A stretch of DNA of 64,000 nt from Bacteroidales bacterium (GTDB lineage: Bacteria > Bacteroidota > Bacteroidia > Bacteroidales > JAADGE01), in NCBI GenBank assembly GCA_021108035.1, contig JAIORQ010000065.1, positions 1 to 64,000 on the forward strand, in the 5' to 3' direction. The notes below the pieces were generated by a model. It saw nothing but the letters and a program-made list of their open reading frames with translations. It searched no databases and was not told the origin of the DNA. The position numbers were made by a program, and so were the translations under genes. Positions 7,936 through 58,609 of this stretch are shown here, one piece after another; position 1 is the stretch's first letter, and each line of letters opens with the position of its first letter.

Positions 7936-8017
7936 TTAACCGCTGAAAGGGTTTTCAACCACTTTCAGGACGAGTTGAAACCCTGTCAGAGGTTGAAAAA
8001 CCCTGACAGAGGTTAAG
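7936..8017. repeat. Cluster of palindromic repeats
   Basis: Two near-identical units, AACCCTGTCAGAGGTT and AACCCTGACAGAGGTT, follow each other within 30 bases. They are preceded by related arms (GTTAACCGCTGAAAGGGTTT and TTCAACCACTTTCAGGACG), so the stretch can fold into alternative hairpins. The type is familiar from Bacteroidota intergenic REP-like repeats. No REP-associated transposase gene is present in this window. Confidence 0.6.
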
Positions 8018-8039
8018 CTTTTTAATAAAAAGTATCTTA

Positions 8040-8340
8040 ATTACATTGGCTCTATTTAATGAAATTGTTGTTAGATAAATTTTTTATTTTTATATTTATT
8101 TTTAACAAAAACCGTTAAAACGGTTAATCTTATTCATATTGTTGTCATAACCACGACTAAAGTCGTGGGTTGTAATTTAAAATATTAACCCAAGACTTTA
8201 GTCTTGGGATAATAAAATACAGTCAATCATCCTAACGGTTTTAACCGTTTTCACACAATTAAAGCGAATGTTCTTTAAAAAGATAAACTAAAAAACAAAA
8301 TATATACAGCAACAATTTCATTAAATAGAGCCATTACATT
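8040..8340. mobile_element. MITE-like element B (285 bp) with perfect ends, 8-bp target duplication and hairpin cargo
   Basis: The element proper is 8048-8332. Its terminal inverted repeats are perfect over 23 bp (8048-8070 and 8310-8332), beginning GGCTCTATTTAATGAAATTG. The flanks are both ATTACATT (8040-8047 and 8333-8340), an 8-bp target duplication. Inside are four palindromes in mirror order: AACCGTTAAAACGGTT (8110-8125), CCACGACTAAAGTCGTGG (8151-8168), CCCAAGACTTTAGTCTTGGG (8189-8208) and AACGGTTTTAACCGTT (8234-8249). No gene is encoded. Perfect ends and duplication indicate recent insertion. Confidence 0.85.
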
Positions 8341-35302: not shown

Positions 35303-37138
35303 ATGGCAAAAAAAATTATTGAAGTTGATGAAGTTGTTGTAAAATTTGCAGGCGATTCAGGCGACGGAATGCAACTTACGGGAACACAGTTCTCCGATAC
35401 ATCCGCACTTCTCGGTGATGATATTTCTACTTTTCCGGACTATCCGGCTGAGATTAGAGCTCCTGTCGGAACCGTAGGCGGAGTTTCAGGTTTTCAACTT
35501 CATTTCGGAAAAATTGTTGATAATCCCGGAGATTTTTGTGATGTATTAGTAGCAATGAACCCTGCTGCTTTAAAGGCAAATATGAGATGGGTAAAAGACG
35601 GCGGAACAATTATTATTGATACTGATTCTTTTACTGATAAGAACTTTGCAAAAGCGGGTTTTCAACAAGAAAATTTGAAAGAAATATATCAAGATTTTAA
35701 TGTTATTCAAGCTCCAATGACAACTTTAACTAAAGAAACATTAGTTAATTCAGGTTTGGATAATAAAAGCATGGTTCGCAGTAAAAATATGTTTGCTCTC
35801 GGTATGGTTTATTGTATATTTGACAGGCCACTCAATTATACTGAAAAATTCCTTGATAAAAAGTTTGTAAAAAAGCCAAATATAGCAGAATCAAATAAAA
35901 AAACTTTAAGAAGCGGATTTAATTATGCTGTTACTATTCATGCAATGCCTTCATACAGAGTGCATTCTTCAAATTCACTTGAAAAAGGCAGATACAGAAA
36001 TATGAATGGTAACACTGCAGCAGCATGGGGATTACTCGCTGCTGCTGAAAAAGCAAATTTACCGTTTTTTCTTGGCTCATATCCAATAACACCTGCTTCT
36101 GAAATCCTTGTTGAAATATCTTTAAGAAAAGATCTCGGAGCCAAATCGTTTCAGGCTGAAGACGAAATAGGCGGTATTGTAACTGCTGTTGGTGCAAGTT
36201 TTGCCGGAAATTTGGCCGCAACTTCAACTTCAGGTCCCGGATTAGCATTAAAATCGGAAGCAATAGGATTAGCAGTAATTACGGAATTACCGCTTGTTAT
36301 TGTTAATGTTCAACGCGGTGGTCCGTCAACAGGCCTGCCTACAAAAACCGAACAATCAGATTTATTTCAAGCTCTTTACGGAAGAAACGGTGAAAGTCCG
36401 GTGCCTGTTATTGCAGCAAGCTCACCTTCAAATTGTTTCGATTATGCTTTTGAAGCAGGTAAGATCGCATTAGAACATATGACTCCGGTATTATTATTAA
36501 CAGACGGTTTCCTCGCAAACGGAACTGAACCGTGGAAAATTCCTTCAATGGCAGATATGCCTGTAATTAAACATAAACTAAAGCCAAAAGGCGAAGGCGA
36601 ATATTTACCATACAAAAGAGACCCTGAAACTTTGGTCAGAGAATGGGCAATACCCGGAACAGAGGGTTACGAACACAGAGTAGGAGGGCTTGAAAAAATG
36701 GATTTAACCGGTAATGTTTCATATATACCGGAAAACCATGAACTGATGACTAAATACAGAGCTGATAAAGTTCAAAATTTGGAAAATGTTTTCCCCGAAT
36801 TAAAAGTTGAAGGAGATGAAGATGCCGATTTATTAGTAATAGCTTGGGGTAGTACTTACGGACATATTACAACTGCCGTAAGAGAATTGAATAAAGAAGG
36901 TTATAAAGTAGCACATGCTCATTTTAACTATATTAATCCTTTGCCGAAAAATACGGCGGATGTTTTCGGAAAATATAAGAAACATCTCGTTTGTGAAATG
37001 AATCTCGGCCAATTTGCCGGTTATCTTGATATGAAACATCCTGAATTTGAATATCTTAAATTTAACAAAATACAAGGATTACCTTTTACGGTAGTAGAAC
37101 TAAAAGAAAAAATTAAACAATTAACCGGAAAAAATTAA
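35303..37138 (+). CDS. korA: 2-oxoacid:ferredoxin oxidoreductase, fused gamma-alpha subunit (KorA)
   Basis: The 611-residue protein starts with the gamma domain (VVKFAGDSGDGMQLTGTQFS, PDYPAEIRAPVGTVGGVSG), then the alpha-subunit PYR domain (GNTAAAWGLLAAAEKA, GSYPITPASEILVEISLRKD, FQAEDEIGGIVTAVGASFAG, TSTSGPGLALKSEAIGLAV). With KorB it oxidises 2-oxoglutarate (or another 2-oxoacid) with CoA, reducing ferredoxin, as used in anaerobic metabolism and reductive carboxylation. The gamma-alpha fusion is the usual form in Bacteroidota. korB starts six bases after its stop. Confidence 0.92.
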   Translation: MAKKIIEVDEVVVKFAGDSGDGMQLTGTQFSDTSALLGDDISTFPDYPAEIRAPVGTVGGVSGFQLHFGKIVDNPGDFCDVLVAMNPAALKANMRWVKDGGTIIIDTDSFTDKNFAKAGFQQENLKEIYQDFNVIQAPMTTLTKETLVNSGLDNKSMVRSKNMFALGMVYCIFDRPLNYTEKFLDKKFVKKPNIAESNKKTLRSGFNYAVTIHAMPSYRVHSSNSLEKGRYRNMNGNTAAAWGLLAAAEKANLPFFLGSYPITPASEILVEISLRKDLGAKSFQAEDEIGGIVTAVGASFAGNLAATSTSGPGLALKSEAIGLAVITELPLVIVNVQRGGPSTGLPTKTEQSDLFQALYGRNGESPVPVIAASSPSNCFDYAFEAGKIALEHMTPVLLLTDGFLANGTEPWKIPSMADMPVIKHKLKPKGEGEYLPYKRDPETLVREWAIPGTEGYEHRVGGLEKMDLTGNVSYIPENHELMTKYRADKVQNLENVFPELKVEGDEDADLLVIAWGSTYGHITTAVRELNKEGYKVAHAHFNYINPLPKNTADVFGKYKKHLVCEMNLGQFAGYLDMKHPEFEYLKFNKIQGLPFTVVELKEKIKQLTGKN

Positions 37139-57357: not shown

Positions 57358-58609
57358 TTGATTTCCATTACTTTTAAAAATGTAGGGCAAGGTGATTCAA
57401 TTTTTCTTGAATGGAAGAATAATGATGATAATCATTTTGGCATTATAGATAGTAATAAGTATAAAGATACAAACCCTATCCTTGAGGAACTGAAAAAAAG
57501 AAAAATCACTGAGATTGATTTTATTATAATATCTCATTTACACTATGATCATTATTCCGGAATTGCAGAGATATTAGATTATTGTATTTATAATTCAATA
57601 AAAATTAATAGTTTTCTTCATACATTACAGCAAGATTATTTGTTTATTTTCAGTAAAATTCTTAAAAGTACAAAACAAAAATTTGTTTTAAATAGTTGGC
57701 TATGGTTTAGGTATTCTGTGAAATATGTATATTGTAATAATCCCGAACGGGATTTAACAATAGTAACCATAGGTGCAACCTATGGAAGGAACAGGATAGA
57801 TAAAAAGAACTCCGACAGGAGTTCAACACCTTTCGGTGTTGATGTTTTATATTCGTAGATTATCCACAGGTTATACCTGTGGTTACTATTGTTTCACTGC
57901 TTCGCAGTAATTGCAAAATCATCCAAGAATACCTAAACCATAGCCAAATAGTTTTATAGAAACGTTGGAAAAAGCTGATTCTAAAAATATTTTTGTTCAC
58001 TCTGGTTCAATTCAGTCTGGTATTACAAGAGACTTTTTATTATCAGAGGACATGAAACTTGTTTTTCATGCACCTATTGAAAAAGATTATCGTGATTTAG
58101 CTAAATTTAGGGCAAAATTCATGGAAGGATATACTGCTACATATCCTGATATTCATAGAGTATCGACTATAATTGAATTATCAAAAGAAAACAAAAGCAT
58201 TCTTCTTACATCTGATGCAAGGAAAAGAGCTTTTGTCAGACTAAGAAACAAACTTTCGAAATCTTTTGAACTTGTTCAAGTTCCTCATCATGGATCAAAT
58301 AATAATCTGGATAAAAGATTTTGGTTATCTTTGAAAAAAGATAACAAATGTCCATCAGTTTTTAGTGTAGGCTACCAGAAAAAAGATAAATTACCAAAAA
58401 TTGAAGTTGTTAATTTTTTCCATAATCAAAAATTTGACATTAAAGCTACAAATAATGTTTTTGGTATATCAGAATTTTATAATGAAGATAATCAGATATA
58501 TAAAGATCATTCAAATCTGCTTAATATTTTCTCAACAAAAAAAAATTCAACACTTAAACAAAAAAACATAATTCATTTTGGGGATCAACATTTTGAAGTT
58601 TTATTTTAA
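57358..58609 (+). pseudogene. MBL-fold metallohydrolase gene split by element E
   Basis: The gene starts with TTG at 57358, directly after the preceding TAA. The first part reads ISITFKNVGQGDSIFLEWKN and FIIISHLHYDHYSGIAEIL, the HxHxDH metal site of the beta-lactamase fold. At 57698 a 248-bp element interrupts it and shifts the frame; translation would end at 57858. After the element the original frame resumes (FIETLEKADSKNIFVHSG), with ILLTSDARK and LVQVPHHGSNNN typical of ComEC/Rec2-like C-terminal metallohydrolases. Removing the element and one 8-bp target copy gives one continuous frame of 331 residues. A TTG at 57965 could allow a fragment to be made, but it would lack the metal site. 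Confidence 0.88.
57690..57953. mobile_element. MITE-like element E (248 bp) with 8-bp target duplication and hairpin cargo
   Basis: The element proper is 57698-57945. Its terminal inverted repeats are perfect over 19 bp, beginning GGCTATGGTTTAGGTATTC. Both flanks are AAATAGTT (57690-57697 and 57946-57953). Inside are five different palindromes in series: AATCCCGAACGGGATT, CCATAGGTGCAACCTATGG, GAACTCCGACAGGAGTTC, AACACCTTTCGGTGTT and CCACAGGTTATACCTGTGG, then CACTGCTTCGCAGTAA-type arms. Like element B it starts GGCT, makes 8-bp duplications, carries hairpins and has no gene. Intact target copies and the repairable host gene mean the insertion is recent. Confidence 0.92.

Follow-up and report, generated by a model that had tools for sequence, protein, structure and literature searches.

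The window analysed here, a stretch of 64 kb, is part of a Bacteroidales genome (G000, a 4.96-Mb assembly of 116 contigs, in which the window contig is C65). It contains two small elements, B and E, each with perfect terminal inverted repeats (TIRs) of 23 and 20 bp, respectively, and an exact 8-bp target-site duplication (TSD). Their features are listed below, with the strand given where one applies.

8040..8047: left TSD of B, ATTACATT, 8/8 against the right copy
8048-8332: element B, 285 bp
8048..8070, plus strand: left TIR of B, GGCTCTATTTAATGAAATTGTTG, 23/23 bp against the right end; IS1595-type, B subgroup
8110..8125: REP hairpin 1 of B, AACCGTTAAAACGGTT, also beside the C7 Y1 gene
8151..8168: REP hairpin 2 of B, CCACGACTAAAGTCGTGG
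8189..8208: REP hairpin 2' of B, CCCAAGACTTTAGTCTTGGG, mirror of 2
8234..8249: REP hairpin 1' of B, AACGGTTTTAACCGTT, mirror of 1
8310..8332, minus strand: right TIR of B
8333..8340: right TSD of B, ATTACATT
57358..58609, plus strand: gene encoding a metallo-beta-lactamase fold, disrupted by E (ORFs 57358-57858 and 57965-58609)
57690..57697: left TSD of E, AAATAGTT
57698-57945: element E, 248 bp
57698..57717, plus strand: left TIR of E, GGCTATGGTTTAGGTATTCT, 20/20 bp match; IS1595-type, E subgroup
57739..57754: REP hairpin a of E, AATCCC..GGGATT
57767..57785: REP hairpin b of E, CCATAGGT..ACCTATGG, preceded by AACAATAGTAACC; in the C69 and C98 Y1 flanks
57807..57824: REP hairpin c of E, GAACTCC..GGAGTTC
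57824..57841: REP hairpin c' of E, CAACACC..GGTGTTG
57864..57882: REP hairpin b' of E, CCACAGGT..ACCTGTGG, mirror of b
57896..57908: REP hairpin a' of E, ACTGC..GCAGT
57926..57945, minus strand: right TIR of E
57946..57953: right TSD of E, AAATAGTT

The initial annotation had described B and E as two unrelated elements built on the same plan, and most of that description holds. Both are real insertions that start with GGCT and have AGCC at the far end, and neither has coding capacity, the longest open stretch being 37 codons in B and 52 in E. B contains four local palindromes, arranged as mirror images, and E contains six; the interior of E is also mirror-ordered, with 72% identity over 141 bp to its own reverse complement. 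The interiors are indeed unrelated (the best blastn match is 9 bases, with an E-value of 0.5-0.6), whereas the ends are not, as they represent two types from a single IS family. As single-stranded DNA, each element folds with its TIRs paired at the base and its hairpins as arms, with folding z-scores of -10.1 for B and -12.4 for E and none of 200 shuffles folding equally well.

B lies in an intergenic region, while E splits a gene whose flanks, when joined at the duplication, give a single frame of 331 codons, with a match to PF00753 (Lactamase_B) on its 5' piece. An Rfam scan of the window returned only a single tRNA. Directly to the left of B, at 7940-8030, lies a cluster of further palindromic repeats (AACCCTGTCAGAGGTT and variants), and a lone 12-mer on the minus strand at 36574, GGCTTTAGTTTA, resembles the start of an E-type IS end.

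Ends of the IS1595 type

Members of the IS1595 family have 8-bp TSDs and an N-terminal zinc finger, according to the part of PMC8101967 available to us, and 8-bp AT-rich repeats are described for ISApl4 (PMC12561309, likewise in part). B and E are like IS1595-family ISs and IS-derived MITEs in having GGC-starting TIRs of roughly 20 bp and 8-bp AT-rich TSDs, and the full-length relatives encode a transposase with a zinc finger and a DDE domain. From these similarities, the ends of B and E represent two subgroups of this one family.

Full-length relatives carrying a transposase, which the initial annotation had suggested looking for, occur both in G000 and in related genomes; a protein search of 197 relatives gave matches in 13, G000 included. 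E-type ends match those of elements in contig C99 of G000 and in genomes G148, G137, and G001. The C99 element is a full-length IS1595-family IS of about 1.09 kb with GGCTTTAGTTTA ends (GGCTTTAGTTTAATATGACG and GGCTTTAGTTTAAAATGGCG), at which a matching TSD is absent. Its protein scores 185 bits against NF033547 (cut-off 75) and 45.4 bits against PF12762 (cut-off 27), while its zinc ribbon falls just under the Pfam cut-off (24.8 vs. 25.4) and passes the NCBIfam IS1/IS1595 zinc model. The G148 element shares the C99/E end type (GGCTTTAGTTTATAATAGC), has the TSD AATAGTTT on both sides (8/8), and scores 191 bits against NF033547 (cut-off 75).

The end type seen in the left TIR of B is that of IS1595-family ISs in genomes G193 and G186, which score 130 and 124 bits, respectively, against NF033547 (cut-off 75). 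The former has ends GGCTCTATTATAGAAAATTGTTGGT and GGCTTTATTAAAGAATTTTGTTGGT with the TSD TTCTGAAT on both sides (8/8), and the latter has ends GGCTCAATTTAAAAATAATGTTGGT and GGCTCTATTTAAGTACTTTGTTGGT. These ends are similar but not identical to those of B. No autonomous IS with exactly the ends of B was found among 60 genomes searched with up to 3 mismatches, nor in a scan of the genome contigs, and thus the link between B and IS1595 rests on similar ends.

For the E type, eight contig edges in G000 end 55 bases into an E-ended element, in two versions that we read as the left and right ends of a collapsed multi-copy IS, which is broken at the contig edges and whose interior is absent from the assembly. 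Among the four left and four right edges, there are two pairs with an exact 8-bp TSD (AAGATTTT and ATATATAA); for the two remaining left edges, no exact TSD partner was found. In G001, which belongs to the same genus, a reading frame comes immediately after the E end (the same 20-mer); this frame corresponds to a transposase N-terminus and shares 40% identity with the first part of the C99 transposase over 58 aa. Just inside its TIR, E itself has a few IS-like bases (GTGAAATAT), as at the edge of an IS, which fits the interior of an IS having been replaced.

Other sources of the ends were considered and set aside. An ISL3 fragment on contig C94 lacks such an end past its stop codon and an ISL3 match on C75 is a broken remnant, neither having a GG-starting end pair with a TSD. 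Three further IS1595-domain genes in G000 do not qualify as direct partners: the one on C9 has different ends (TAGGTATAGGCGTTTA, TSD 8/8), and those on C25 and C98 have no clear TIR. Separately, at about 181.3-182 kb on contig C52 of G000 (L217), a fragment of an IS1595 transposase continues from a frame beginning MAKILGLDIGTNSIGWAVVD, which we take, from a translation by eye, to resemble a Cas9 N-terminus.

Interiors and the repeats of resident Y1 genes

A search of G000 for Y1_Tnp gave 10 matches, and the hairpins of B and E, REP-like inverted doublets with several copies per genome, recur beside particular Y1 genes. The hairpins of B occur on both sides of the Y1 gene on C7, whose 3' flank repeats the four-hairpin mirror order of B, while the hairpins of E flank the Y1 genes on C69 and C98. 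A 203-aa Y1-like gene on C55 has GCGGT hairpins on both sides; it received no PF01797 call (0 Pfam families). The Y1 gene on C16 and a second gene on C55 have other flanking hairpins. At C55:15855 of G000 (L166), a Y1 gene is flanked by an inverted pair of AAAACCTTATTACCTTAT in place of hairpin REPs.

We compared the interiors of B, E, and a third element, F, with their TIRs removed, against the 12 flanks of six of these genes (C7, C69, C98, C16, and the two on C55) by blastn. Matches above shuffled sequence are one-to-one: B with C7, E with C69 and C98, and F with the 203-aa gene on C55. B matches the two C7 flanks at 83.3 and 51.8 bits (at most 38.3 in 100 shuffles and 29.2 for the remaining flanks), E matches the C69 and C98 flanks at 64.4, 62.6, 59.0, and 50.0 bits (shuffles at most 31.9, remaining flanks at most 22.9), and F matches its two flanks at 73.4 and 50.9 bits (shuffles at most 32.8, remaining flanks at most 22.9). 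The initial annotation had suggested looking for REP-associated Y1 transposases; within these flanks, the interiors of B and E match only repeats at Y1 genes of their own genome.

This correspondence bears on whether the palindromes could be self-arisen terminators or snap-back structures that only look like REPs, in which case B and E would be ordinary MITEs. Many MITEs fold with their TIRs paired at the base. The whole-element folds of B and E agree with that reading, yet each interior corresponds to both flanks of particular Y1 genes far above shuffles and the same hairpin units are also found outside MITEs, and we consider it very improbable. Covariation could not establish that the E hairpins are under selection: although 97.8% of the cells in the hairpin alignment are paired, the covariation signal is weak, with only 2 of 40 pairs changing on both sides, both of them in hairpin b of two related copies (C92 and C61).

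In their inverted doublets, scattered copies, and presence on the flanks of Y1 genes, the hairpins resemble REPINs and BIMEs with their RAYT (TnpA-REP) genes, as these are defined in the parts of PMC3116915, PMC2817692, and PMC6006769 that we could draw on. They differ from these systems in that one REP family is found chiefly within DDE-type ends flanked by TSDs and in that a conserved GT[AG]G foot is not seen. Because no canonical GT[AG]G is conserved at the foot of the hairpins read in B and E, we do not file them as canonical GTAG REPs. The C7 and C98 proteins pass the NCBIfam IS200/IS605 model and not the RAYT model, and the 203-aa C55 protein reaches 46.9 bits against the RAYT model (cut-off 80); hence, the word REP rests here on arrangement rather than on name. 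The C7, C69, and C98 genes, whose sequences were read, have HUH and Y---Q--HH motifs that fit subclass 1.2 of PMC6006769, a subclass that the available text of that paper describes as generally lacking typical terminal IS200 structures.

A second alternative is to class B and E as TIRtrons, units in which the Y1 transposase itself recognises the terminal repeats. The accessible portion of PMC3733652 describes Y1 genes that have unrelated terminal repeats, and the hairpins of B and E do accompany Y1 genes. However, the exact 8-bp TSDs are unlike IS200/IS605-type Y1 enzymes, for which PMC2817692, as far as its available text goes, reports no larger target duplications. Moreover, ends of this kind enclose IS1595 transposase genes, and no GGCT...AGCC pair occurs in the flanks read at the six Y1 genes of G000. 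We therefore hold this alternative to be extremely improbable.

Copies and exchange of cargo

In G000, where all copy counts are minima, we observe at least five near-complete copies of B (97-100% identity), with one end at a contig edge and one solitary end in addition, and at least 11 copies of E (77-100% identity), with halves and a deletion derivative. An exact 8-bp TSD is found in four of the six B copies examined (three of five in G000 and one in G013, a genome of the same genus), in four of 11 E copies, and in three of five F copies, one of these being poly-T. Most inexact TSDs match at 6-7 of 8 positions or are off by one base. For B, the TSD is 8/8 on C65, C52:114771, C26, and in G013, 7/8 on C52:69283, and lost on C32; for E, it is 8/8 on C76, C65, C9, and C50, 7/8 on C24, C47, and C61, 6/8 on C43 and C92, and shifted by one base on C27, while the C3 copy lacks its right end. 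Identical copies of B and E at separate sites suggest recent movement.

Allowing up to 3 mismatches, B-type ends were found in six of 60 genomes including G000, and only G000 and G013 have a full pair of them together with a TSD. Allowing up to 1 mismatch, E-type ends were found in eight of 393 genomes including G000. The distribution of B and E thus looks narrow. Lone B-like end matches (G018, G030, G033, G056, L198-L200, and L203) form no convincing pair with a TSD, and seven E-end matches on viral contigs, none of them paired, lie mostly within phage genes, so viral contigs were set aside as carriers.

If other copies had the same interior in both families, the initial annotation had reasoned, the hairpins would be part of a fixed element rather than exchangeable cargo. 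Within families, this is largely what we observe, as all five B copies and all 11 E copies listed share their interior, divergence aside. Between families it is not, as near-identical E ends also enclose the REPs of element F, an element of about 150 bp (151 bp) with two GCGGT hairpins at four or more loci in G000 (C14, C16, C81, and C27) and on C400 of G013. The cargo of F is the REP type of the 203-aa gene on C55, a fourth Y1-like gene, and thus one end type encloses two REP families. Even within the E family, one hairpin cassette has been exchanged: in C24, C43, and the deleted copy at C98:69k, hairpin a is replaced by GATTAATTGC(A/G)ACAGCAATTACC, which also adjoins the Y1 genes on C69 and C16. 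C24 otherwise resembles the near-identical E group and C43 does not, which indicates that the cassette moved between backgrounds, presumably by gene conversion. The cargo thus hardly varies among members of a family but differs from one family to the next.

A core pattern of the E-type REP has 34 sites in G000 (0 for the reversed control). E-type elements hold 23 of them, with 20 in E copies and three in half or deleted copies (C58, C98:126307, and C98:69021), while eight lie at the Y1 loci of C98 and C69 and three elsewhere (C86, C98:5782, and C8). Unlike the E-type REPs, many B-type REPs are located outside B. F-type REPs also occur within GGCT...TTTA ends of greater divergence, and at places where IS1595 ends are lacking. 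F-type doublets at C26:67655 and C49:22937 (L279 and L280) have weak GTTAAGTCAA-like inverted ends outside them.

Genome G274, from another family of the order, has E-type ends around four other mirror-ordered hairpins. Read by eye, the TSD ATTGTTTT stands on each side, and hairpins like these are also present in that genome outside such ends. The REPs at the sole Y1 gene located in G274 are different, leaving this case without a Y1 link. Elements in G278, G186, and G082, with similar ends, other interiors, and no demonstrated Y1 link, were not accepted as further cases.

Origin and spread of the composite elements

The initial annotation offered two readings of a composite that it could not name: transposon ends that collect REP-like hairpins, or hairpins that serve as insertion targets. 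The IS1595-family ends and the interiors matching repeats of Y1 genes favor the first. Taken from the sequence, the insertions, their IS1595-like ends, their REP interiors, the several combinations of ends and REPs, and the identical copies elsewhere suggest that B and E are very probably non-autonomous IS1595-family MITEs whose transposase gene has given way to a REP doublet, a REPIN-like array, of a resident Y1 type and which are moved in trans by an IS1595 transposase. In our best reading, such capture of REP doublets by IS1595-derived MITEs would have happened on more than one occasion.

Most likely, a REP doublet was gained by an IS1595 IS as the transposase gene was lost, and the resulting REP-loaded MITE may then have been amplified in trans. 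The IS1595 transposase would recognise the GGCT... ends and insert the unit with an 8-bp duplication, with the REPs riding as passengers of a DDE transposon. The doublet could have entered through insertion by the Y1 enzyme or through template switching during repair, coupled with loss of the transposase gene, and the near-palindromic fold may help the two ends meet.

The order of events is the main difference between this scenario and one in which REP doublets landed through Y1 activity in IS1595 MITEs that were already empty, the MITEs being a neutral landing ground and the association accidental. REPs also occur outside IS1595-type ends, pointing to other dispersal as well, and B-type REPs lie within at least two other end types, both of which speak for such a landing. 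On the other hand, G000 yielded no empty MITE that had E or B ends and shared the subterminal sequence, and the listed copies are all loaded (11/11 for E and 5/5 for B); we regard such a landing as unlikely, if worth keeping in view. Returning to capture by IS1595 MITEs, a broader proposal is that hitchhiking on DDE MITEs may be a standing mode of REP dispersal in Bacteroidales, in which IS1595-type and other ends repeatedly load the doublets of resident Y1 genes, fold-back aids end pairing, and nearly all copies of some REP families are made in this way rather than by the Y1 enzyme. We put this forward tentatively, as a possibility about which we are more doubtful than convinced.

In the literature consulted, which was mostly open-access and included the available parts of PMC3733652, PMC3189936, PMC3116915, PMC2817692, and PMC6006769, we found no earlier description of a REP-loaded MITE. 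Compared with IS1595-derived MITEs, the interior of B and E is the REP array of another transposase system and not a deletion remnant of an IS. A MITE with a different kind of repeat inside is known from Porphyromonas gingivalis, a Bacteroidales species. The cargo of that MITE, BrickBuilt, is a 23-bp minisatellite, as opposed to the REP hairpins with a Y1 gene seen here (PMC4596501, in part). B and E also recall REP-inserting IS elements (PMC1525189, in part) in associating transposons with REPs, although there the REP is an outside target and here it is the inside cargo. With this minisatellite-bearing MITE and these REP-targeting ISs as the closest precedents in the text available from both papers, we consider the REP-loaded IS1595 MITE a real and unusual composite of two known kinds.

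This composite unites two transposase chemistries, DDE and HUH/Y1, within a single small element, and the repeats of one jumping system appear to be spread by another. REP spreading is poorly understood, according to the portion of PMC8266576 available, and the dispersal of one REP family mostly within unrelated cut-and-paste ends (23 of 34 core sites) provides a second, testable route. It also means that REP counts cannot serve as a measure of Y1 activity.

The second reading of the initial annotation, hairpins as insertion targets, does not fit B or E, but REP-like hairpins in this genome do harbor a separate element, one that has 4-bp duplications. This small element has GAGACTGTGTGAAAAC-like ends and carries B-type REPs (L030, L020, L027 with L029, and L288, at C84:8464, C3:41691, the C92 end with the C80 start, and C49:82 of G000). 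Its possible 4-bp duplications, read by eye, are TTCC, TTTA, and TTAA, and in several cases it is placed in the apex of a REP-like hairpin. Units of B-type REPs are likewise found within nCTGCATTATTCA ends (L014, L016, L017, L018, and L285, on C41, C34, C2, C71, and C113 of G000), three of the five having a possible 4-bp duplication (TATT, ATAT, and TTAA, by eye).
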